From IMG/VR virus record IMGVR_UViG_3300017739_000159, positions 1 to 20,354 of that record: DNA of 20,354 bases; one strand, 5' to 3'. Numbering within the stretch: position 1 is the stretch's first letter; each line of letters begins with the position of its first letter. Position numbers and translations under genes: made by a program. This document shows positions 2,850 through 19,078 of this stretch, piece by piece. The notes under the pieces were generated by a model. The model worked only from the letters and a program-made list of their open reading frames with translations. It ran no database searches and was not told where the DNA came from. The DNA comes from a virus.

Positions 2850-3595
2850 TATGATTTACGTTTTGCGTCAGCTTCTACGTGCTCTGATTTACCATAGCTC
2901 GATAGACCTGGTTTGTTAATAACTATACCAGCTAGCTCTAATATTTTTAACACTAGTCTAGCTTCTTCTGAAGGGTGAACCTCAAAATCAGCAGCTCCGT
3001 TAGCATTGTATAAAGCTTTTTCATTTACGACAACATAATCCCACTCTACTTTTTTAGGTTTTCTTATGTAGTCGCATCTTACGTCGTTAAATATATTTGC
3101 AAAACCGCCTACAGAGTTTAAGTGAAAAACTTGTATAGCGTTGTTTTGTCTAATATAAGCTGGGTGCTCTAATAAAGGTTGCCCACCAAAAACACCTTTT
3201 TTCATTAAGTGTAGTTTCTTAGGCGTAACCTGAGAGCATATATTTTCTAGATGTCTTACTTCTTCAAGCCTATACATATCGCTAGTACCAGCTGGATAAC
3301 CTATAGTGTCGTTTATAGGTAATAATATCTCGTTGCCGTTAGTCTGCGTTAAAGTAAAATTATATACTTGAAATATACTTAACTTATCTTCAATGTCATC
3401 AACAGAATCACCAGACGCCGTAGCGTTGCCAGGATTTCTATGTAATTGATTTAAGTCATAGAAGTATTGCTCAAACAATTGTTGTTGAGCTTGATTGGCT
3501 AAAAGGTTAAACTCCTGTGGAGTTATGTAGCCTCTTTGTTCTTTATTTGCTAATGCTAGTACACGTTGATATACCGTATCTACACTTACTGCCAT
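2849..3595 (-). CDS. Head-tail connector-like structural protein
   Basis: This 248-residue protein starts MAVSVDTVYQRVLALANKEQ, followed by RGYITPQEFNLLANQAQ and FEQYFYDLNQ. That helical opening is familiar from uncharacterised structural proteins of marine phages, where it sits between capsid and gp4-like genes. A second recognisable block is DVRCDYIRKPKKVEW (about 171-185) with FEVHPSEEARLVLKILELAG (about 204-223). Similar blocks occur in connector or adaptor proteins that bind below the portal. It lies directly upstream of the gp4-like ring gene, coupled through TAATG, and downstream of a UUCG hairpin. Its C-terminal 20 residues are charged. A role as a head-completion or ring protein in the neck is inferred mainly from position and the shared motifs. 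No catalytic motif is visible. Confidence 0.8.
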   Translation of the reverse strand: MAVSVDTVYQRVLALANKEQRGYITPQEFNLLANQAQQQLFEQYFYDLNQLHRNPGNATASGDSVDDIEDKLSIFQVYNFTLTQTNGNEILLPINDTIGYPAGTSDMYRLEEVRHLENICSQVTPKKLHLMKKGVFGGQPLLEHPAYIRQNNAIQVFHLNSVGGFANIFNDVRCDYIRKPKKVEWDYVVVNEKALYNANGAADFEVHPSEEARLVLKILELAGIVINKPGLSSYGKSEHVEADAKRKS

Positions 3596-3616
3596 TTAAT
3601 TATCTTTTATAGTTAA

Positions 3617-3640
3617 GTAACCACCCCGAAGAGTGGTTAC
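3617..3640 (-). other. UUCG-capped intergenic hairpin, weak terminator or processing site
   Basis: On the minus strand an 8-bp perfect stem (GTAACCAC / GTGGTTAC) is extended by a U-G and a C-G pair and capped by UUCG closed by C-G, the extra-stable tetraloop. It lies in the 60-base gap between the head-module gene ending at 3656 and the connector gene starting at 3595. The downstream sequence (TTAACTATAAAAG) has no U-tract, so it is not a canonical intrinsic terminator. It could be an RNA-processing or stability element that sets relative transcript levels. Confidence 0.65.
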
Positions 3641-3655
3641 TCTTCTATAAAGTAA

Positions 3656-4492
3656 TTACATACTTAGTCGCTTTTCTATGTTAGAATACACTTCCATACC
3701 TTCATCAGTCTTGAACCAAACAGCTAGCGCTGAATATGGGTGCTCGTCAAAAGGAACAGTCATTAGTTTTCTACCAGTGTTACCCCACTCAAAGTGTCTT
3801 TGATCAGAAGATAATTTTAATATACCTTCTTCAGTAGCTCTAATACCAAAGTTTCTAAGCTCTACGTTTTCGTCTTGAACTAATTCTAAGAACAATAAAG
3901 GATTTCTCTTAGCAAACAGTAGACAATCTCGTTTAAGTTCTTTAGAACTCATCTCAGATACTTTAGACCCTAATTCTACTCGCATGATAGCTTCCATCTT
4001 ATCGATGTCTAGAGTTTTAGCTAACACTAAAGCGTCTGCTTCTATCTCTAACCAGTCTAGTTGACTAGCAGCTTCTTCAACAGGTTTGTACTCTTTGTAT
4101 ATCAAGTCTTTGTGAGGGTGGTATAACGATAATAGTTTTTGTAATACCGTTTTGTTTTTAGGAACAAACAAAGCTCCGTTTCTAAAAATTATATGTTCTA
4201 ATCTTTGCTCACCTTGCATTTCATCTACAAACGGAGTTCTTTGATTAGTAGTGTTCTTTAACTCTCTTTCATAACCTTTTCCTTCGTCAAAATAGTATAT
4301 ACCAGCCGCTTTTAACTGATAGCTCAAAGGTGATCTATTACCTTTAAGGTTGTACATTCTATCTTTTATTTCCCAAGAAGGTTTTTTAGGAGTTGCTACA
4401 GGTTTTGGTTTTTCAATAACCACTTCCTGCGTTTCGTTAGTAGCTTTAATTTCTGTTTCAGCTACCTTCTTTGTAGTTTGTTTTTTTGCCAT
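3656..4492 (-). CDS. Conserved head-module protein of unknown function
   Basis: The protein has 278 residues. The first 40 are a Lys/Thr/Glu/Pro-rich, probably disordered tail (MAKKQTTKKVAETEIK), followed by a folded part starting WEIKDRMYNLKGNRSPLSYQ with LKAAGIYYFDEGKGYEREL, then RTPFVDEMQGEQRLEHI and FRNGALFVPKNKTVLQKLL. I recognise this block from proteins encoded immediately after the major capsid gene in marine phages. I know no experimental function for it. The C-terminal half is helical and charged (KELKRDCLLFAKRNPLLFLEL). It is expressed separately from the capsid gene because a strong terminator lies between them. A head-closure, minor capsid or packaged protein is possible. No enzyme motif is visible. 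Confidence 0.8.
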   Translation of the reverse strand: MAKKQTTKKVAETEIKATNETQEVVIEKPKPVATPKKPSWEIKDRMYNLKGNRSPLSYQLKAAGIYYFDEGKGYERELKNTTNQRTPFVDEMQGEQRLEHIIFRNGALFVPKNKTVLQKLLSLYHPHKDLIYKEYKPVEEAASQLDWLEIEADALVLAKTLDIDKMEAIMRVELGSKVSEMSSKELKRDCLLFAKRNPLLFLELVQDENVELRNFGIRATEEGILKLSSDQRHFEWGNTGRKLMTVPFDEHPYSALAVWFKTDEGMEVYSNIEKRLSM

Positions 4493-6042: not shown

Positions 6043-7227
6043 TTATTTTTTATTTTTAATCTTAAACTTAAAATCTGAAGAAGAATCTCCACTTAAAACT
6101 CTGTACTTAATGCCTCCAACCTCAACTTCTTTATTTGCTTGTCTAGGATTCATGTTAATGTTCTTAGACTTTTCAATAGATTCTTTTAAAGCGTCAGCTT
6201 TGCCTTGCTCATAAAAGTGCTTGGCTACAGAGTCAGCGTTCATAGCGGTGTATAATCCTTTGTGATAACCAGCAGCGTCTTCCATAACACCTTCTTTGCT
6301 CAAAAACTTTTTGACAAAATTGTTAATGTCACTCTGACTAGTCTTGACCTTATCAGTGTCTTTAACACCAAATCTAAACTTCTTTTCACCTACATTAAAT
6401 TCAAAACCTTTGAACTCTCCGGAAAATAAGTTGTTTGTTTTGTTGTCAAACACCTCTTTGGCCTGATTAAACTTGCTTTGTCTTTCTTCAGACTCTTTGT
6501 TATGTCGATTAAAGAAGTCCATAGCCTTTTGATATTCATTGTTGACTGTTGGGCGAGCTTTAATCTCATCGTAATATTTAGACTTTTGCCCGTCTAAGTA
6601 GGCTTTAGCCTCAGCAACTTGCTCTTTTAAGGCTATTTTCTTTTTTCTAATATCTTTAGCTTCATCAATCTCTTCATCGTAGCTAAACGTTTCGTCCATC
6701 AAAAACTGTATTTCTTCAGCGTCGAGATGAGGCTTAGTAGCTTTATAGTATTCTCGCAAAGCTGTTAAGTTATCCATTTCAGAATAATCTTTATTTAGCT
6801 CAACGTAATCTTCAACTGTACCACCTGTTTCATTCATAAATGAAACTAGCTTGTCTAGGTTTTCAGGAAGCTCTACGCTTGGCTTTTCTTCAGATACAAC
6901 TTCTTCTTTTACTTCTTCAACAGTTTCTTCTGTTATCTCTTCTAATACTGGGCTTTCTTGTGTTTCACTTTCCGCCTGTACTTCTTCTTGTTGCGGTGCG
7001 GTGTCGGTAGCTTCATCGCTTCCAGCCACTCCTGCGTCGTCAGTTGTACTTTCTTCAACATCTTTGGTTTCTTCATTTTTAGTCATATCAACTTTGTAGA
7101 CATCGTCTTCACCATTGTAGTTAGAAAACTTCTTAGGTTTAACTTTAACTTTGCCTACTGCTTCGTCAACTATCGGTTGTTCTTTTTGAACAACTTCTTC
7201 GACTGGGTTTTCATTTTTTTCTTCCAT
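6043..7227 (-). CDS. Scaffolding protein
   Basis: The 394-residue product sits between portal and coat genes, where scaffolding proteins are encoded in P22 and crAss-like phages. Residues 1-120 are very acidic and low in complexity (repeated EE, TE and VEE), predicted disordered. Residues 185-260 are charged helix with coiled-coil character (KDIRKKKIALKEQVAEAKAY, QSKFNQAKEVFDNKTNN). The end contains NMNPRQANKEVEVGGIKYRV and a basic finish (FKFKIKNKK), as expected for the coat-binding end of a scaffold. It would line the procapsid and leave before DNA packaging. No protease motif is visible in it. The acidic stretch creates apparent open frames on the opposite strand that I treat as shadows. 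The call rests on composition and position. Confidence 0.82.
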   Translation of the reverse strand: MEEKNENPVEEVVQKEQPIVDEAVGKVKVKPKKFSNYNGEDDVYKVDMTKNEETKDVEESTTDDAGVAGSDEATDTAPQQEEVQAESETQESPVLEEITEETVEEVKEEVVSEEKPSVELPENLDKLVSFMNETGGTVEDYVELNKDYSEMDNLTALREYYKATKPHLDAEEIQFLMDETFSYDEEIDEAKDIRKKKIALKEQVAEAKAYLDGQKSKYYDEIKARPTVNNEYQKAMDFFNRHNKESEERQSKFNQAKEVFDNKTNNLFSGEFKGFEFNVGEKKFRFGVKDTDKVKTSQSDINNFVKKFLSKEGVMEDAAGYHKGLYTAMNADSVAKHFYEQGKADALKESIEKSKNINMNPRQANKEVEVGGIKYRVLSGDSSSDFKFKIKNKK

Positions 7228-7244
7228 AATATAAAATATAATAA

Positions 7245-9590
7245 TTAAAACTGATTCATATTCAAGCCAGTCCCTAGTTCATCATTACCTGCTGACTCGA
7301 ATTTTTTACTCGCTGCTTCTTGTCTTTTGTCTTCTATTTCGTTCTTAGACTCAGCTTCTAAAGCTCTTAGCTTCATGTTGTATTGGAACTCTAGCTCCAT
7401 TAATCTTTCTTTTATTTTAGCTTCTTGCTCTAGGTTTTTAGCTTTAAACTCTGCTTTGGCTTGCTCTAGCTGCATTTGACTTTGAGTGAGCGCTTGCTGC
7501 TTTTGCGTTTCGGCTTGAGCTTGAGCTTGCGCTGTTTGCTGTTGAGCTTGCTGTTGAGCTTGTATATTTTGCTGTTGCATTGCTTGCTCTTCTTTAGTCT
7601 TCTTCTTTTCTTTTATTTTAAGAAGCTCGTTGGCAAGCTTTACATTTTTAGTGTTTCTAATATCAATAGCGTCAGACAGCTTTATAATCTTCTGAGCTAA
7701 AGCCATTTGTATATTGTTTTCTAGCATTTGCTTTTCCTCTTCGTCAGGTGCTAGTTCTATAAATATACCAAAGTCGTATAGATATAGCTCAGACATTTCT
7801 TCTAACGTAGCAACATTATGTGTTCCTATTTGTTGCAAGAAAGCATCTCTTGTTGGAGAATACTCAAGTATGTCTGAAACTCTTAAAGATATTTGCTCTG
7901 CTACATCGGCTGTTAAATACAAGCCCGCTTGAAGCACGTGTCTTGTAGCTGTATTGCTATTTGCTGCGGCTAGTTTTTGAACACCAACTAAAGCGTGTCT
8001 GTCAGGCGTACTACCATCACTAGCTTCGTTTAATCCGGTTACGTCACGAATCATCTGCAAGTAGTAGTTGTAATTACCTATAAGCGTTTGTATTTTGTTC
8101 GCACCACCGTTAGTGTTTATTTCTTGTATAGGTATTTTACCTGGGTTTGGATCTCCATCTACATTATATGATCTACCAATAACAGAACCTGTTTGGAAGA
8201 ACATGTTTAAAGCTTCTTGTGGATTATAGTTTGTTCCGTTACCAAGATCAACTTCAGCTAAACCATCAGCGTCTAAATAAACACCATCAGGCACCATACG
8301 TGACATTACTTGTTGTAGCTTTAAGTGTGTAAGCTGTATCATATCTGCAAAACCAGTGATACGGCTGACGATACTTTCAACTCTACCCTGATACATACGA
8401 GGAGCAACAATACTATAGTTAAGCTTAACCTTAGTCATATCGCTTTTTGGCCTCATCATGTTTTCAGCCATTTCCCATTTTAAAAGTTTTTCAGATCCTA
8501 GTATTTTAGCTCCTTCAAATAAAACTTCTACTTGTCTTGATAGCTTAGCGTAGTCACCCTGCTTATCGGTAGGTGGGTTAAACGAGTCATCTTTTTCTAT
8601 AGCTTTTTCTCCGCCTGTTGAGGTTTCTTTCAACTTATAGACTTCGTTCATGTATGTTTTATAGTTGAAATATAGTACGTCAACTATGTTTTGATCTTTA
8701 CTTCTTCTAGCTCTATTGTATTCGTATTTATGAGAGTCTCCCTTTTGTATGTCTTCTAAATCTTCTTGAGTTAAGTGTGGAAACTCTTTTACTAGTTCGT
8801 TGATAGGTATAGACTTTACTTCACCAACATAATATATATCATCAAAATAAGGAGATTCAGTATAAGAGTATACTAACATATCTGGATCAACATACTCTAC
8901 TCTAACACCGTTAGCTGTATCAAAAGTAGTTTTTACAGCAGCTATACCTAACACAGCTAAATCGTAGTATAATCTTTTTCTTGTAAGCTCGTAATTGTTA
9001 CCTTGAAGCAAAACGTTTATAGCCTGCTCTTCAGCTAGCTCTGTAGCTTGCTTGTAAGTGAGCTGCATGTGCAACTCTAGCTCTTCCTCTGTCTCTGGTA
9101 AAGTTTCTGGATCGTTCTCTCTAAAATCCATGTTAAAGTTTTGCTGAGCTGCAGCGTCAAACTCTTTTGCTTTTAAATCTCTGAGTACGCTTTCCATGTA
9201 CTCAGTTCTTTTAGCAACGCCGTATGGATCTTGCGAAAATACTTTTATGTCGTAATTTCTTTCAGACATACCGTTAACCACTATGTCTACAAATTTTGGA
9301 ATTATAGGTACAGGTTTCCAGTCTAAGTTTAAGTAGCTCAAGTCACCATTTATTGACAACTCATCTTTATACTTTTGCACTGACTGCTCACCCCTTGCGT
9401 ATAGTCTTAATCTATGAAAGTCATTTCTATTAGCGTAAAATCTAGATGCGCTACGCCTATGAGCTCCGTTGTCTGCTCTATCAAACCACTCTGTCTCTAT
9501 TGCTTTAGCAACATCTAATCCGTAATCGTAGCTTAACTTTTCAACATCAGGTACTACCTGACTTGGAAAATAACTGTTTGCTCCAACCAT
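7245..9590 (-). CDS. Portal protein, crAss-like, with Q-rich coiled-coil tail
   Basis: The product has 781 residues, the size of portals in crAss-like and related podoviruses. The N-terminal part includes RFYANRNDFHRLRLYARGEQ, then NLDWKPVPIIPKFVDIVVNG with MSERNYDIKVFSQDP, a block I associate with this portal group. Following blocks such as YDLAVLGIAAVKTTFD, VRVEYVDPDMLVYSYTESPY and IRDVTGLNEASDGSTPD fit wing, stem and crown regions. From about residue 657 to 767 there is a long Gln/Ala/Glu-rich stretch (KTKEEQAMQQQ, QALTQSQMQLEQAKAEFKAK, IKERLMELEFQYNMKL) that should form a helical barrel or coiled coil projecting into the capsid. It forms the dodecameric DNA channel and docks TerL during packaging. 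It follows terL by two bases, so the two are probably translationally linked. Confidence 0.92.
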   Translation of the reverse strand: MVGANSYFPSQVVPDVEKLSYDYGLDVAKAIETEWFDRADNGAHRRSASRFYANRNDFHRLRLYARGEQSVQKYKDELSINGDLSYLNLDWKPVPIIPKFVDIVVNGMSERNYDIKVFSQDPYGVAKRTEYMESVLRDLKAKEFDAAAQQNFNMDFRENDPETLPETEEELELHMQLTYKQATELAEEQAINVLLQGNNYELTRKRLYYDLAVLGIAAVKTTFDTANGVRVEYVDPDMLVYSYTESPYFDDIYYVGEVKSIPINELVKEFPHLTQEDLEDIQKGDSHKYEYNRARRSKDQNIVDVLYFNYKTYMNEVYKLKETSTGGEKAIEKDDSFNPPTDKQGDYAKLSRQVEVLFEGAKILGSEKLLKWEMAENMMRPKSDMTKVKLNYSIVAPRMYQGRVESIVSRITGFADMIQLTHLKLQQVMSRMVPDGVYLDADGLAEVDLGNGTNYNPQEALNMFFQTGSVIGRSYNVDGDPNPGKIPIQEINTNGGANKIQTLIGNYNYYLQMIRDVTGLNEASDGSTPDRHALVGVQKLAAANSNTATRHVLQAGLYLTADVAEQISLRVSDILEYSPTRDAFLQQIGTHNVATLEEMSELYLYDFGIFIELAPDEEEKQMLENNIQMALAQKIIKLSDAIDIRNTKNVKLANELLKIKEKKKTKEEQAMQQQNIQAQQQAQQQTAQAQAQAETQKQQALTQSQMQLEQAKAEFKAKNLEQEAKIKERLMELEFQYNMKLRALEAESKNEIEDKRQEAASKKFESAGNDELGTGLNMNQF

Positions 9591-13093: not shown

Positions 13094-13116
13094 AATTTTA
13101 TTTAATTAAATTAATA

Positions 13117-13488
13117 TTACTCGTACACTTGTACGAATCCAATCGTAACGCTAGTTGTAGCGCTATAAGTTATATTCACCTTTCCACTTGAATCATTAAA
13201 CCCTGCGGGTTTAAAAGGTCCAATAGATGTTATTTGTCCTGTCGCGCAAGACTTAGCTACGTTTGCTTTTGTTAAGGTTCCGTAGCTAGTATCCTCTATA
13301 TTAGTTGATGATACATCAGCTGTATCTAAATGAGCCTCAACAGTAACTGTAACAGCGCTACCGCTCGCGTTATTTATCAAGATTATTTCTTTTCCCGAGT
13401 TAGCGAAATCATCACCTCCCGATGAAGTAGCATGAAACGTTATTTGAGTTCCAGCTTCTATAGATTGTTCTGGTGTTCTTGTAGCCAT
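13117..13488 (-). CDS. Beta-rich probable virion decoration protein
   Basis: The 123-residue product is rich in Thr, Ser, Ala, Val and Gly with alternating strands (TQITFHATSSGGDDF, KEIILINNASGSAVTVTVEA, GKVNITYSATTSVTIGFVQV). The pattern (hydrophobic strand, short polar turn, strand ending VYE) suggests a beta-sandwich such as those of decoration or head-fibre proteins. There is no signal peptide or enzyme motif. It starts two bases from the stop of the upstream beta-rich gene. The GGGAG near the start is the Trp-Glu-Arg coding end of that gene, not clearly a ribosome site. I infer a virion surface role from composition and context only. Confidence 0.75.
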   Translation of the reverse strand: MATRTPEQSIEAGTQITFHATSSGGDDFANSGKEIILINNASGSAVTVTVEAHLDTADVSSTNIEDTSYGTLTKANVAKSCATGQITSIGPFKPAGFNDSSGKVNITYSATTSVTIGFVQVYE

Positions 13489-13489
13489 A

Positions 13490-14251
13490 TTATCTCTCCC
13501 AGCTAAATATACATTTAATAGGGCTTAAGTTTATTATCTCGTCAGCAGAAGCTATAGCACCCACGTTGTTAGAGGTTAGTATAATAGAAGTAGAGTCTGG
13601 TATGCTGCTTACCGTACCTATAGTCGCGTTAACGTCGTGTATATGTAAGACATCTCCTTTTTGAAAGAAACTTCTTGGATCAGTTGTGCTAACAGTAATG
13701 TCGTTAGTGGCATCATCTGAGTGAGCTCCTGCTGTAACTACGTTTGTAGAAAAGTTAAGTGCAAAACTTTGATGACCAACACAAGCAACGTAAACTTTAT
13801 CGTAACCTACGTTTTGACCGTACTCAACTCTACTTTCTACCACTATAGCTGCCATTTGATCTCCAGAAGCGCCAGCACCCATGCTATATACGTCTAGAAA
13901 GTCTAATCTAGCTTTTACAGCTGTATCGTCTATAACAACAGCACCTAAAACGTTATCATAATATCCAGTTCCATTTGCTGTAGCATTAGGCGTTCCTATG
14001 GAAGAAGGTGCTGTACCATCAGCGTTAGGCTTAGCGAAAAAGAACTGCATAGCCCCAGCCGTGTGAGTACCTCTTATCATAACGTTAATATCTTTTAATT
14101 TAGCTGCGCCTTTTGGAATTTGCATCTCTTGCCAATCAAATAGTACGTCTCCTGCTGCGAAAGCTAAATCAGTTTTGTCAGATTGTATAATTTGCGCTAC
14201 GTCTGTAAACGCTGGTTTAATTTCTGTTGTAAAAAATTTACTAACTGCCAT
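13490..14251 (-). CDS. Probable structural protein, beta-rich
   Basis: The 253-residue product opens MAVSKFFTTEIKPAFTDVAQ. Middle segments DLAFAAGDVLFDWQEMQIPK and KLKDINVMIRGTHTAGAMQF suggest strands of a capsid-associated or fibre protein. Residues about 130-165 (GDQMAAIVVESRVEYGQNVG, YDKVYVACVGHQSFALNFST) and about 170-245 (DDATNDITVSTTDPRSFFQK, GDVLHIHDVNATIGTVSS) give a second beta domain with the GDVLHI turn. The protein ends FSWER. I recognise the general style from unassigned structural proteins of marine phages, not a named family. It lies between the holin-like gene and another beta-rich gene, with 1-base gaps on both sides. Confidence 0.75.
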   Translation of the reverse strand: MAVSKFFTTEIKPAFTDVAQIIQSDKTDLAFAAGDVLFDWQEMQIPKGAAKLKDINVMIRGTHTAGAMQFFFAKPNADGTAPSSIGTPNATANGTGYYDNVLGAVVIDDTAVKARLDFLDVYSMGAGASGDQMAAIVVESRVEYGQNVGYDKVYVACVGHQSFALNFSTNVVTAGAHSDDATNDITVSTTDPRSFFQKGDVLHIHDVNATIGTVSSIPDSTSIILTSNNVGAIASADEIINLSPIKCIFSWER

Positions 14252-14958: not shown

Positions 14959-15330
14959 TTAATCTTTAAATTCCCACGGTAAATCAACATCTCCTTCTTC
15001 GTACCACTCGCCTTCGTAAAGTATGTAGCCATCTTTTCTAGGATATGTTACACCGTCAAATGTTAACGTTTCATCGTCATAATCAACCCTTCCAAGTTTA
15101 AAGTGTGTCATGTGTTTCATTTCATGTTGCAGCACTCTATTATAATCTTCAGAATCTTTTTCAATATCGTTACTTATATATATCACACCTTCTCTGTGAC
15201 ATTCACCCATCGTGCCTTCAGGTAGATCAGCAAACTCAACTCTTACGCCACTAACCATGTTGTCACTAGTTCCATTGAAGTTAAGCTTCTTGTCTTTGTT
15301 ACCTCTGTTGCTACCTAATTTAAAAGCCAT
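14959..15330 (-). CDS. Small HExxH zinc metallopeptidase-like protein
   Basis: The 123-residue product has H69-E70-M-K-H73 within VLQHEMKHMTHF, the zincin signature with the preceding helix. It is preceded by GVIYISNDI, a strand typical of zincins whose edge strand lines the active site. A third zinc ligand is not certain; D83, D85 or D86 in VDYDDETL, or H76, are candidates. The C-terminus (TYPRKDGYILYEGEWYEEGD, LPWEFKD) is a conserved-looking acidic and aromatic tail. The layout recalls small phage proteins related to the DUF4157 type of HExxH domain. It may cut a virion or cell-wall protein, or be a structural zinc protein. Its start shares one base with the upstream stop (TAATG). Confidence 0.75.
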   Translation of the reverse strand: MAFKLGSNRGNKDKKLNFNGTSDNMVSGVRVEFADLPEGTMGECHREGVIYISNDIEKDSEDYNRVLQHEMKHMTHFKLGRVDYDDETLTFDGVTYPRKDGYILYEGEWYEEGDVDLPWEFKD

Positions 15331-15770
15331 TATCTGCTTGGGTCTTTAATCATATCATCAATAGCTTTATTGAAAACTTTATCTGTATATGATTTGTTAT
15401 TGTAGAATACACTTCGATCTGATACTGGCATGTCTTCTTCTCCGAGTAAGATCCTATAGATTCTACTTATTAATTGGCTGCATTTAAACGAAGTTTTAAA
15501 TACGCTATACTTTATCGTTGTACGATTTCTATGTCGCCAAACTTCTATCCAGCCTTCTTGTCTTAGTTTATCCCAACGCTTCTTATCCCAACTCATGGTA
15601 TAAGTGCCATCTATAAACTCTTGTCTTGTAAACCGACCTTTGCAATCTAAGTATATTAGTAGCTCAAGCTCGGCATCTGTCAACCCGTAAGTCTTACAAG
15701 CCCACTTTCTAGTGAGCCTGTAATACTTAAGAATTTGTAATTCACGTATATCGTGACTAGTTAATCTCAA
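15330..15770 (-). CDS. Winged-helix-like protein with TTG start
   Basis: About 146 residues. The first codon is TTG, directly after the stops TAATAATAG, and no in-frame ATG occurs until about codon 59, which would remove most of the conserved N-terminus. The order is helix HDIRELQILKYYRLTRKWAC, helix YGLTDAELELLIYLDCKGRF, recognition-helix-like TRQEFIDGTYTMSWDKKRWD, then the wing-like GWIEVWRHRNRTTIKYSVFK. This matches a MarR-type winged helix, although DNA binding is not proven. The C-terminus (FKCSQLISRIYRILLGEEDM, VFNKAIDDMIKDPSR) is helical. Related proteins occur in marine phages within structural blocks, so a structural or late regulatory role is possible. It follows the third beta paralogue by six bases. 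Confidence 0.75.
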   Translation of the reverse strand: MRLTSHDIRELQILKYYRLTRKWACKTYGLTDAELELLIYLDCKGRFTRQEFIDGTYTMSWDKKRWDKLRQEGWIEVWRHRNRTTIKYSVFKTSFKCSQLISRIYRILLGEEDMPVSDRSVFYNNKSYTDKVFNKAIDDMIKDPSR

Positions 15771-15776
15771 CTATTA

Positions 15777-16478
15777 TTAGTCAAGTGTTATTGAATCTAC
15801 AGCTGTGATACCAGGAGCATTATTGTCTAGGAAAATATCTCTAAACGTATCTGCTACTACTATCATTTGACCTTGATTTCTTTGATCCATCATAACATCG
15901 TGTAAGCATTGAGCGAGAACTTTAAAGTTTCCCGCAGTGTAAGATAATCTTACTATATCAACACCACCAGCTACGTTATCGTTAGTGTTTGGCTCAAAGT
16001 AAATATCAGCAGTGTCATTGTCAACCTGAACTAAACCTAAGAAAGAAGAAGCAGGCCATACACAAGCATCACCAGCTTTAACAGGTCCGTTCAATCTTAC
16101 CACCGCGTCGTTCTCACCTGTAGTAGAGCTTAGCGTAACGCCAAACTCAGGATCAGCGGTAGCTGTAGTTACTGTTATATCTTGAACACCGTCGTAGCTT
16201 AACGCGTTAGGGTGTACTACAACAACCTGACCATTACCTGGTTTTGATCTTGCTGAGCCAATACCGTAGTGCGTGCCAAATGACAAGTTAGTGTAGTCAG
16301 AACCGTCTAACTCTAAAGTCATGTTACCGTTTACGAATAAATCGTTTCCAGCAACACCGTCTGGAATAGGATCTACTAAATCAGTTGTTAGTCTGTATGT
16401 AGTTGCTGATGTAGAAGCCGTAAAGTCTTGATTTCTTGTAGCTCCCTTTGCAAAGTATAAATATTTTTCGTTGTACAT
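15777..16478 (-). CDS. Beta-rich paralogue with internal insertion domain
   Basis: The 233-residue product is the longest of three tandem relatives. Its start (KYLYFAKGA) and its C-terminus from about 137 (DACVWPASSFLGLVQVDND, then YTAGNFKVLAQCLHDVM, MIVVADTFRDIFLDN) align by eye with the 117- and 112-residue neighbours. Between them, about residues 14-135, lies an unrelated stretch (TYRLTTDLVDPIPDGVAGND, MTLELDGSDYTNLSFGTHYG, GQVVVVHPNALSYDG) that looks like a separate beta domain. Function is unknown. Composition and neighbourhood suggest a virion or DNA-associated protein. Similar YLYFATG-type starts are known to me from uncharacterised marine phage proteins. It begins after A/T-rich sequence without a Shine-Dalgarno site. 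Confidence 0.78.
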   Translation of the reverse strand: MYNEKYLYFAKGATRNQDFTASTSATTYRLTTDLVDPIPDGVAGNDLFVNGNMTLELDGSDYTNLSFGTHYGIGSARSKPGNGQVVVVHPNALSYDGVQDITVTTATADPEFGVTLSSTTGENDAVVRLNGPVKAGDACVWPASSFLGLVQVDNDTADIYFEPNTNDNVAGGVDIVRLSYTAGNFKVLAQCLHDVMMDQRNQGQMIVVADTFRDIFLDNNAPGITAVDSITLD

Positions 16479-16488
16479 AGTAGTAATT

Positions 16489-16842
16489 TTATAAGCTTAT
16501 TTCAGCATCGGTTAATACATTCTTTCTGCTAGTTGGGCTAAAGAAAGTTTTAGTTCCACTAACCTCATCTACGTCTGCTAGTACGATAAATCCATCTTTT
16601 GGATTAGAAGTAAAAGCATTTGAGCATTGCTCCATAGCTTCCATGCTGTGTCCAGTTTTATGGATTAAGCTTATAGTAGATATGTCAGTGTTGTGCGCTG
16701 TTCCTAAATCAGCAAACGTTAAGTCTAGCTCATCGTCTAACTGAATTTTCATAGCACATAGATTTGCTACTGGTAGCATTACAGCTTCACCAGCCGCGTT
16801 AGCTCCATCACCTGTTGCAAAGTATACATATTTATTTATCAT
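16489..16842 (-). CDS. Small beta-rich paralogue, middle of three
   Basis: The 117-residue product starts MINKYVYFATGDGANAAGEA. The rest follows the pattern of both neighbours: VMLPVANLCAMKIQLDDELD (strand and acidic turn), DISTISLIHKTGHSMEAMEQ (strand then helix), GFIVLADVDEVSG (strand) and a short tail ending NVLTDAEISL. In the 112-residue neighbour the same places hold FLGMELVDADT, FSGNFKDACRAIAGALN and MTVVADALNDEYLG. Tandem duplication followed by divergence is the simplest explanation. Function is unknown; the small alpha/beta unit could be an oligomeric virion component. Gaps to its neighbours are 10 and 11 bases, so all three are co-transcribed. Confidence 0.75.
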   Translation of the reverse strand: MINKYVYFATGDGANAAGEAVMLPVANLCAMKIQLDDELDLTFADLGTAHNTDISTISLIHKTGHSMEAMEQCSNAFTSNPKDGFIVLADVDEVSGTKTFFSPTSRKNVLTDAEISL

Positions 16843-16853
16843 CGTTTTGTGTA

Positions 16854-17192
16854 TTAAGCGTTAGTTACAGTGACAGTACCAGAGAATCTTCCTCCGTTGT
16901 ATCCAAGATACTCGTCATTTAATGCATCAGCAACAACCGTCATTGTGTTGCTATTCAATGCGCCTGCGATAGCTCTGCAAGCATCTTTAAAATTACCTGA
17001 AAAGTCAAACGTAACAGTATCAATAGCCGCCGTGTTGATTGGAGACTTGAAACTTAGTTTAACCGTGTCTGCGTCTACTAGCTCCATACCTAAAAAGGTT
17101 TCAGCTGTAAACATTGATGCGGAGTCAGCTCCTGCCGCTGCGTCGTGGAAATACAACGTAGCCGGGTGATTCCATGCTGGAAAATTAGCCAT
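16854..17192 (-). CDS. Small beta-rich paralogue, first of three
   Basis: The 112-residue product starts MANFPAWNHPATLYFHDAAA and ends SGTVTVTNA. TFLGMELVDADTVKLSFKSP, VTFDFSGNFKDACRAIAGAL and MTVVADALNDEYLGYNGG correspond by eye to FLGLVQVDNDTADIYFEP, LSYTAGNFKVLAQCLHDV and MIVVADTFRDIFLDNN of the third paralogue. It is the first gene after the chaperonin pair and follows a 73-base gap, the longest in the window, which may hold a promoter. Its A/T leader (CATTTAACAA before ATG) lacks a Shine-Dalgarno site. No function can be assigned from the sequence. Confidence 0.75.
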   Translation of the reverse strand: MANFPAWNHPATLYFHDAAAGADSASMFTAETFLGMELVDADTVKLSFKSPINTAAIDTVTFDFSGNFKDACRAIAGALNSNTMTVVADALNDEYLGYNGGRFSGTVTVTNA

Positions 17193-17265
17193 TTGTTAAA
17201 TGTTTTTGATTAATAATTATTTGTTTAAGATTTTGTGTTTAAGGATTAAGGCTTGTGGTTTATGT
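17193..17265 (-). promoter_or_regulatory. Longest intergenic gap, A/T-rich, with repeated TTAAACA
   Basis: The 73 bases between groES and the first beta paralogue are strongly A/T-rich. On the minus strand TTAAACA occurs three times, at 17263-17269 (overlapping the groES stop), 17236-17242 and 17222-17228, so starts are 27 and 14 bases apart. No Bacteroidota TAnnTTTG box and no hairpin with U-tract is visible. It is a candidate site for a phage late promoter or operator, but in A/T-rich DNA such repeats can arise by chance. Confidence 0.3.
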
Positions 17266-17523
17266 TTAATCTACTAATACAATATCACTTGCCTTGATAA
17301 CAAAATAAAACTTACCGTCAAACTCTATACCGTGGCCTGCAAATCTATCATACCACACTATATCGTCTTGGTTAATAGCTTCGACAAGATCTCCTGCCGA
17401 AACTACTTTACCTTTAAAATACCTTAACTCTTCATCTTTGTTCTCATCTAATATAAGACCGCTAGATGTTTTTTGTTTTTCTTTTATTCGATCTACTACT
17501 ACGTAATGATTAACTGCCTTCAT
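17266..17523 (-). CDS. groES: Phage co-chaperonin GroES (roofless)
   Basis: The 85-residue product, against 97 in E. coli, shows the cpn10 pattern. Strand YVVVDRI is followed by a mobile loop (about 14-34) with SSGLILDENKD, where L23-I24-L25 replaces the GroEL-binding IVL triplet. Then come FKGKVVSAG, DDIVWYD, GHGIEFDGKFYFVI and the final KASDIVLVD. Between VVSAG and DDIV only eight residues remain, against about 17 in E. coli, so the roof hairpin of the dome is missing. T4 gp31 also lacks this roof. It should cap the GroEL ring as a heptamer. The start lies 14 nt inside groEL in another frame, with no Shine-Dalgarno site, so translation is probably coupled. The order groEL then groES is the reverse of bacterial operons. 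Confidence 0.93.
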   Translation of the reverse strand: MKAVNHYVVVDRIKEKQKTSSGLILDENKDEELRYFKGKVVSAGDLVEAINQDDIVWYDRFAGHGIEFDGKFYFVIKASDIVLVD

Positions 17524-19078
17524 TTACTCGGATGTTTGAAATTACACAATCAGCAGATATAATAGTAGATACTACGCTTACTGCGTTTTTCAGCGCCGAT
17601 TTTGTAACCAAAACCGGATCTATGATGCCAGACTTAACCATGTTGATACGTTTACTAGTTATAGCATCTCTACCATAACCTTCGTGATCCACAGAGCCTT
17701 TGTCTATAAATATACCAGCATTAGCTAATATAGTGTCAAATGGAGTTCTTATAGCCTTTAAGAATAACTCTTCGCCGACATCGTCGGTCGAAATTTTTTG
17801 AGAGGCATTAAGGAGTGCAACGCCGCCCCCTGGCACTATGCCTTCTTTCAACGCAGCCTTTGTAGCATAAATCGCATCCTCGACCCTGTCTTTCTTTTCT
17901 TTAAGTTCCACCTTTGAGTTTGCCCCAACACGGATAATTCCAACACTACCCGATAACATAGACAGTCTTTGCTCCAGCTTTTTCTTAATAAAACTATTTT
18001 TCTCATCTGCAATTTTTTTATGTAGCTCATCTATTCTTTCACCTATTGATGATTCGTCTGCTTCTACGGTGATAACAGTGTTCTTGTCATCTGTCTCTGC
18101 ATAATCAACTTGACCAAGATCTTCTGGTGTAATAGCGTCTAGATCATCTCCTAGCTCTTCGTTAAATAGAACAGCGCTAGTTAAAATAGCTAGATCTTCA
18201 CACGTGTCTCTCTTTGTAGGGCCAAAGCCTGGTGGGTCTACAATGTTTACTTTTATATTACCCTTTACTTTATTCATAAGCAGCGCCGACTTTACTTGTT
18301 GAGCTGCAGGCGCTATAATAAGTAAAGATCGGTTTTGTTTAATTACATGCTCTAATACACCTTGTATCTTACGTATGTTAGGTATTTCAGACATACACAT
18401 CAATACTAAAGGATTATCAAGCTCTGCTTTCTGTTTGTCTGTGTTAGTTACAAAATGTGGAGATGTTAGCCCTGAATCAAACTGAACGCCGTCTACAGTG
18501 TCTACGTACGTTTCTTCAGTCTCAGAAGTTTCCATAAGCACAACGCCGTCTTTACCTACAGCTGTGTAAGCCTTTGCTATGATCGTACCAAGCTCTTTGT
18601 CATTGTTACAGCTGATCGTGGCTACGTTGATTAGCATGTCATTGTCAACTTCTATCTTTATAGACTCTAAATAATCAAGCACTTTGTCTAAGCCAGACTG
18701 CATACCTTGCTTTATTTCTCTAATTGTCGCCTTGTCCATAGAATCATAGACATGTGTAAGTATTGCTTCAGCTAGAACAGTTGCAGTGGTAGTGCCATCA
18801 CCCGCTTGTTTCACCGTATTGTTTGCTGCTTCTTTAATAAGTGTAGCTCCAATATTCTCGACAGGGTCGAATAACACCACGGACTGCGCTACAGTAACGC
18901 CGTCTTTAGTAATTACTGGGTTACCTCGGGCATCTTCGTAAATTACGCACTTACCAGACGCGCCGAGTGTAGATTTTACTGCTTTTGCTAGTTTGTTCAC
19001 GCCAGATATGACGCGATTTTTAGCTTCATCGCCAAAATTAAGCTCTTTGACGATCTCGCTAGGGAGATTGTATTCCAT
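17510..19078 (-). CDS. groEL: Phage chaperonin GroEL, possibly single-ring
   Basis: The 522-residue type I chaperonin is full length except for the tail. Equatorial ATPase motifs are intact: TLGASGK (usually TLGPKGR), ITKDGVTV with D59 (E. coli D52), [12 protein letters not shown] (93 onward, E. coli D87 at D94), [16 protein letters not shown] with D401 (D398) and GGGVALL. The apical domain has PGFGPTKRD and [10 protein letters not shown], where the substrate-binding Tyr199 and Tyr203 of E. coli correspond to Leu and His. The C-terminus ends [13 protein letters not shown] with no GGM tail. At the ring-ring interface K105 aligns with D112, E434 with S430 and R452 with D448, and the E461 region is replaced by hydrophobic residues. 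It would fold virion proteins, most likely the capsid protein, in the host cytoplasm. It is preceded by a TTTAA-repeat leader. Confidence 0.97.

Follow-up and report, generated by a model that had tools for sequence, protein, structure and literature searches.

Capsid decoration proteins are exemplified by Hoc, pb10 and Dec. Phage crAss001 has an auxiliary capsid protein, gp36 (PDB 7qof), which Bayfield et al. (2023) describe as a pleckstrin-homology (PH) domain (residues 1-74 and 238-333) with an inserted FliD-like domain; each asymmetric unit of the capsid carries nine copies, and the authors knew of no other viral capsid with a protein of this fold and size (PMC10172136). In this work we examined a small protein family encoded between GroES and a 146-aa protein (p146) in a 20,354-base virus fragment (the window), and in related contigs. 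We refer to this interval as the slot and to the three proteins that it encodes in the window as A, B and C.

The window genes lie on the minus strand, as judged by synteny and family matches. The order of transcription is three small ORFs, GroEL, GroES, A, B, C, p146, small genes (one of them weakly holin-like), E253, D123, further small genes, TerL (labelled from annotated relatives), a P22-like portal (Pfam 2.5e-7), a 394-aa protein, the presumed major capsid protein (MCP), two genes and an SU10-adaptor-like protein. The window MCP is 43.8% identical to those of Maribacter phage Panino and of an uncultured podovirus from a spring, 36.7-38.8% identical to those of Flavobacterium elemo phages, and 34.6% identical to that of Cellulophaga phi38:1. 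The 25 TerL relatives in genome assemblies, all on MAG-type contigs, were titled Bacteroidota (15/25), archaea (6/25), proteobacteria or Desulfobacteraceae (3/25), or were without a group (1/25); we take the non-Bacteroidota minority to be mis-binning. The host of the window phage and of the slot-bearing marine contigs is probably a member of the Bacteroidota. A 33-kb IMG/VR contig (3300017773_000066, L003) encodes an MCP 100% identical to that of the window and probably represents the same virus population. The window also encodes a phage GroEL; for the related phage phi38:1, methylated GroEL is reported from free-virion samples (PMC13288928). The 729-aa adaptor-like protein resembles the SU10 adaptor only at residues 27-176, under the Pfam cut-off; given this partial match and a counterpart of 442 codons in L112, it may carry a large insert.

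The proteins described here may have a PH-like domain in common with gp36 (published for gp36, tentative for the core here); they also resemble it in a second inserted domain (in the C-type proteins only) and in belonging to a Bacteroidota phage (probable here). In contrast to gp36, which has 333 aa, A and B are single domains of ∼110 aa without an insert, and the insert of C lies after strand 1, at another place than the FliD-like domain. The slot is located ∼10 kb upstream of MCP, whereas gp36 lies downstream of MCP in crAss001, four genes after gp32; gp36 is single copy, whereas zero to three copies occur in the exchangeable slot. The slot proteins resemble decoration proteins of the Hoc, pb10 and Dec type in being small, modular, low in Lys + Arg and dispensable at the genome level; the family had no sequence match to known decoration proteins in Pfam or PHROGs.

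Table 1. Positions of the slot genes, their parts and neighbouring features (window coordinates unless a contig is named).
Feature	Position	Strand	Basis
A112, first paralogue, single core domain, 112 aa	16854..17192	-	ORF and sequence comparison
B117, second paralogue, single core domain, 117 aa	16489..16842	-	ORF, sequence comparison, model
C233, third paralogue, core domain with insert, 233 aa	15777..16478	-	ORF, alignment, model
Insert of C, ∼residues 15-134	16077..16436	-	shuffles, alignment, low-confidence model
First core strand of C (residues 6-10), which the insert separates from the remaining core	16449..16463	-	alignment, models
AT-rich leader between GroES and A	17193..17265	-	leader comparison
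GroES, conserved upstream neighbour of the slot	17266..17523	-	PHROG 1.9e-14
p146, conserved downstream neighbour of the slot	15330..15770	-	phrog_17028 (unknown function) 2e-5
Phage GroEL	17510-19078
Segment with D123 and E253	13117-14251
729-aa adaptor-like protein	660-2849
Beta-rich domain (DSGK..F.L, then TLP)	L109 1661-2107; L209 (=G008) 1241-1669, 1654-2112; L117 1409-2176

Homology of A, B and C and the insert of C

A first-pass annotation had described the three tandem ORFs as paralogues, with coordinates that proved exact. Pairwise comparisons were scored against 300 shuffles. A gave z 11.3 against full-length C and z 14.9 against C without its insert, and the A-C kinship was also found by phmmer (C vs. 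A, 1.4e-5). B was weakly similar to full-length C (z 2.2, equalled by 12 of 300 shuffles) and reached z 7.1 against C without the insert, a piece that was picked only after reading the earlier finding. The A-B similarity is not significant alone (z 1.6, with 26 of 300 shuffles as good); an ORF of another contig (L085 1134-1475) bridges the two, matching B at E 5.4e-9 and A at 3.2e-6. Judged by sequence comparison, A, B and C are homologous, with the A-B tie carried by relatives. Chance similarity was rejected for A and C by shuffles and phmmer, and for B via relatives, the direct comparisons of B with A and with full-length C being weak. The blocks FLG, GNFK and VVAD, said to be shared by all three products, are literal in A and C, but B reads LCAM, GHSM and VLAD instead.

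An iterated profile search with five seeds (A, B, two ORFs of L085 and one of L099) recovered 22 distinct members among the ORFs of 167 records, the worst domain E-value being 3e-19 against a last-round profile that already contains the members. At E 0.01, a member was present in 22 of 50 contigs selected from the loci collected here. The family consensus starts with a short strand (LYF) and an acidic turn, followed by P-A-S with G some residues on; next come a strand that closes with F, the motif D-V-LT, a helix and a further strand with ADD at its end. The 22 members had no credible match in PHROGs (two families, one member each, best E 0.0031) or in Pfam (nine families, one member each, best DUF2653 at 5.7e-4), and A, B and C of the window matched nothing under 0.04 in either database. 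By tblastn, no relatives of single members were found in an annotated phage collection; none of C or of A were confirmed in IMG/VR, and no family member was present in the stretches scanned of phi38:1, elemoF, ctfjg026 and Panino. A literature search, with subscription journals mostly outside its reach, found no title or abstract opening on this family.

The claim that ∼120 residues of different sequence split the third product was confirmed: this stretch is unlike A, B and the rest of C, alignment and models agree, and it comes directly after the first core strand. When nine C-type and 19 small proteins are aligned, the gap of the small ones opens immediately behind the first strand (LYF), and all eight C-type relatives aligned with window C have an extra stretch there. 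The large protein of G061 shows the same lay-out by eye; it has the weakest core match (E 0.029, or 4e-5 with a wider profile). The insert of window C is homologous to those of L008 52-732 and of G003 (phmmer 5.3e-14 for the latter). A single family for all C-type inserts was rejected, since the L214-L222 type has no detectable kinship with the window and G003 inserts (hhalign E 0.021); the G061 insert is possibly a relative of the L214-L222 type (E 4.4e-4, probability 33%). The insert was also considered as an extra copy of the core and rejected, z being below 0 against A, B and the rest of C. Duplication followed by domain insertion, as had been proposed, is borne out by the shuffle tests, the L085 link, the family alignment and the models.

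Slot content and block exchange

Next, we searched all collected records for GroES and p146 on one strand and <6 kb apart. The resulting table has 37 rows, corresponding to 36 distinct junctions because L206 appears twice. Three members were present at nine junctions (window, G003, G013, G056, G061, L216, L217 with L218, L220 and L222), a share inflated because four of these trios (L216, L217/L218, L220 and L222) were fetched with a C-type query; without them, and with the window counted, it is 5/32. Two members were found at three junctions, one member at 14, an unmatched gene at one and nothing at nine, where GroES and p146 adjoin. The order within every trio is small, small, large. With 9/36 junctions empty, the slot genes are dispensable at this place. 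Three empty-slot records searched whole (G062, G069 and G070) contained no family member; an empty slot does not always mean that no member is present, as L236 has a weak match elsewhere (6886-7338, E 0.0027). In one starred group of three, L116 is empty, L211 has one gene and L215 has a trio. L138 is the contig whose slot is filled without a detectable member; its 127-aa product (3482-3862) has a strand/helix pattern that looks similar by eye, and it is possibly a very diverged member of the family.

In the single-member slots of L109 and G008, the core gene lies beside another small beta-rich protein (once in L109, twice in G008), and the same domain is fused to the C-terminus of the core in L117 and, more weakly, in L112. 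This domain had no match in PHROGs. The AT-rich leader between GroES and A contains spaced C pairs (TTAAAC..AAACCA.AA) that are recognisable by eye in 16 of the 18 slots compared; the leader is different in L109 and G008 (L209), whose slots start with the other domain. It could have a regulatory role or serve as a recombination anchor.

We then compared the history of the slot genes with that of their neighbours. In a tree of 39 core domains, the A, B and C types mostly stand beside their counterparts from other contigs, and four labels require five changes, compared with a minimum of 3 and a mean of 19.0 in shuffles. In the tree found, no type forms a single clade; one clade each for A, B and C was not rejected (AU p 0.41, 0.57 and 0.53). 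The details of this tree are unsure because the end branches are long (median 0.69) and 14/36 inner branches are open. Since the types tend to stand with counterparts in other contigs, the duplications predate these phages. In a tree of GroEL, GroES and p146 from the 36 junctions, the trio label requires nine changes for nine rows, which is no improvement on shuffled labels (8.2), at least seven of them forced by well-supported branches, and emptiness (with L138) requires four. The paralogues are thus coherent while their carrier backbones are scattered.

Pairs of contigs gave a direct view of the exchange. Upstream of the first start codon and downstream of the last stop codon, the DNA flanks of L099 and L217 agree at 95.4 and 94.1%, respectively; the slot between these flanks holds one gene in L099, which is a single contig, and three genes in L217, with no alignable DNA. 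An assembly error at the L217 trio is disfavoured because L218, from another metagenome, agrees with it at 99.0% over 8,275 bases, trio included. For L217 and L215, scanned in windows of 200 bases, the trios show 90-99% identity within the slot and 88% in the window across the slot start, compared with 66-81% on the GroEL side. Downstream, identity is 94 and 84% within p146 and 38-67% beyond, the last range coming from a global alignment that includes unlike genes; further past p146, blastn pieces are 69-85% identical. These windowed identities place the change near the GroES-A leader upstream and near the end of p146 downstream. For p146, dS between L215 and L217 is 0.841; the three slot genes have values of 0.096 (A), 0.013 (B) and 0.158 (C). 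The nearest backbone to that of the window, L210 (84% over the three backbone proteins), has one slot gene instead of three.

Among seven trio contigs, median identities are 29% for A, 31% for B and 32% for C, compared with 70% for GroEL, 56% for GroES and 84% for p146; TerL reaches 81% in five of the seven. Some other genes vary as well, p123pept being at 44% and p253E at 34%. p146, which bounds the slot, is among the most conserved genes here; it had no match in Pfam, and by eye it has the look of a winged-helix DNA-binding protein. No positive selection was seen in the slot genes of five contigs by the Nei-Gojobori method: the dN/dS ratios of A and C span 0.08-0.25, those of B 0.20-0.89 (the maximum comes from a near-identical pair) and those of p146 0.03-0.07. 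Because selection among close relatives is purifying, we read the slot diversity as old alleles exchanged between phages. We concluded that the trio is an old duplication plus cassette transfer and not a one-off local duplication. The word 'local' in the first-pass annotation, taken as a recent event in this phage, was therefore not supported: the A, B and C types tend to group across contigs and the trio travels as a block.

A second exchangeable segment holds D123 (tail PHROG, 6.7e-9) and E253. Its DNA (window 13115-14249) is unalignable with that of L210, while both sides are 79-89% identical; L099 and L217 differ at the corresponding place too.

Fold of the core and possible kinship with gp36

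To describe the core we used predicted models of B (mean pLDDT 73.2) and C (mean pLDDT 64.9). In the C model, the first ten residues have pLDDT 86, residues 141-210 lie at 72-95 when averaged in tens, and the insert is below 60. The two models compared, B and C, both run through five strands, a helix and more strands in the same succession, and the different folds that would have spoken for chance similarity were not found. In VIA-align searches, the leading matches were PH, PTB and FERM-F3 domains, with Z up to 5.2 for B and 5.8 for C. The top four rows of each list have Z 5.1-5.8 with 67-74 residues aligned and rmsd of 3.0-4.5, lower rows include unrelated folds, and by the tool's own warning Z below 8 may reflect only a common arrangement; values near 5 are frequent among unrelated folds. 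Foldseek searches with both models found nothing in PDB at E 0.001. We tentatively regard the modelled core as pleckstrin-homology-like. Most top matches of C run from ∼residue 4 to ∼200 with ∼70 residues aligned, so that these matches take in strand 1 along with the core and pass over the insert. An N-terminal fusion instead of an insertion is disfavoured by these spans and because strand 1 is well modelled.

The B117 model matched nine proteins in BFVD at E 0.001 or better, six of them labelled 'uncharacterized' and three nameless. These predicted fold matches are marine viral proteins (A0A218MM55, A0A7S9SUY7 and others; Foldseek E 8e-6 to 7e-4), mostly of 96-121 aa and thus near the size of the single-domain A and B; the larger ones (436, 546 and 408 aa), unlike A and B, hold the fold inside a longer chain.

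Sequence searches for relatives of solved structure gave chance-level matches only: with one family profile (A1) gp36 ranked third in PDB at E 1.3, and with another (A2) it was not listed among the PDB profiles. Its absence among the structure-search rows listed excludes nothing. We also compared family alignments by hhalign with a profile made from eight gp36 relatives. The core profile A5 scored 29.15 (E 9e-4, probability 22.8%, 53 columns), with gp36 279-333 covered by two of its strands, its helix and its final strand, and A7 and A4 scored 25.5 (E 0.0032) and 22.2 (E 0.013). In control experiments, 200 column-shuffled gp36 profiles reached at most 19.1 against A5, and 18 other window families reached at most 16.6 against A5 and 22.6 against gp36. 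The best of these controls, MCP, matched the same part of gp36, and the A4 score falls under it. Two smaller family profiles of eight ORFs each (nearest A and nearest B) gave control-like scores of 15.9 and 15.6, and the gp36 match thus depends on the alignment used. The A5 comparison hints at a possible remote kinship of the family core with gp36, although two defining features of gp36, the inserted FliD-like domain and a single gene shortly after MCP, have no counterpart in the family.

Possible roles of the slot proteins

Lys + Arg content is under 8% (4.5-7.8%) in seven of the 25 window genes, namely A, B, C, MCP, the adaptor, D123 and E253, and 10.1% or more in the remaining 18. The share of A/G/S/T/N/V is high in A, B and C, as in MCP, the adaptor, D123 and E253, unlike in the other 18. 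This composition, together with dispensability, modular added domains and block exchange, favours exposed virion proteins. In the reading that we prefer, the exchangeable GroES/p146 slot encodes accessory proteins of the virion, and the paralogues A, B and C would most likely be auxiliary (decoration) proteins of the capsid; we give this reading a probability of about 0.47, slightly short of even. The first-pass annotation had drawn the same comparison with decoration proteins, and the host-binding module that it named would be a hypothetical role of the insert. The slot proteins would then be located in the virion, have the capsid as their partner and be exposed on its surface. The small core domain (five strands, a helix and further strands, tentatively PH-like) would be the anchor to the virion, and the added domains, placed after strand 1 in C-type proteins or at the C-terminus in other phages, would form the outward part. 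Slot exchange may change how the particle meets cells or other surfaces.

Several of these observations are also expected of tail adhesins, that is, slot proteins that build a tail fibre or spike, or sit at its end, and whose block exchange swaps receptor specificity: the exchange between intact flanks (L099/L217 and L217/L215), the modular beta-rich domains, a composition like that of other likely exposed proteins, and the nearby second segment with its 'tail' PHROG match in D123. However, the core proteins have merely ∼110 aa, nine empty junctions out of 36 would be odd for a sole receptor binder, and there was no credible match to a known fibre family in Pfam or PHROGs, A112 having a weak match to a tail PHROG (E 0.047). 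We consider this explanation unlikely, and prefer a capsid auxiliary role in view of the small size of the core, its complete absence from some slots and the weak gp36 lead.

Variable slots among late genes can also carry non-virion cargo. The presence of zero to three genes combined with exchange is the pattern of accessory cargo, and would suit small intracellular proteins directed against host defence or superinfecting phages and exchanged as sets. The low Lys + Arg and high A/G/S/T/N/V contents, shared with MCP, the adaptor, D123 and E253, argue against it, as do the fused and inserted beta-rich domains and the place within the late gene block; we rate it as improbable to much the same degree as tail adhesins. 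Internal head or ejected proteins packaged beneath the shell would fit the late gene block and the virion-like composition, but such a location accounts less readily for modular inserted or fused domains and for block exchange; we rate this reading as very improbable.

The capsid auxiliary reading can be extended, with due doubt, to a general picture that we hold to be possible at best: marine Bacteroidota phages would keep, in a dedicated slot flanked by GroES and p146, a coat cassette of zero to three PH-fold decoration proteins with varied inserted or fused outer domains that recombines as a block, separately from the remaining genome. The single-domain members would be the form of the fold from which the two-domain gp36 arose by insertion, and the C-type would be a second, independent insertion into that fold.

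Tail-fibre exchange is well known. To our knowledge, multi-gene block exchange at one slot has not been described for capsid decoration proteins. Natural pairs such as L099 and L217, with a near-same backbone and a different slot, would allow functional tests of the slot proteins. If the gp36 link held, the family would provide an evolutionary root for the gp36 auxiliary capsid protein. If the capsid auxiliary reading is true, exchange of an optional coat-protein block would re-dress the phage surface without touching the receptor-binding tail.
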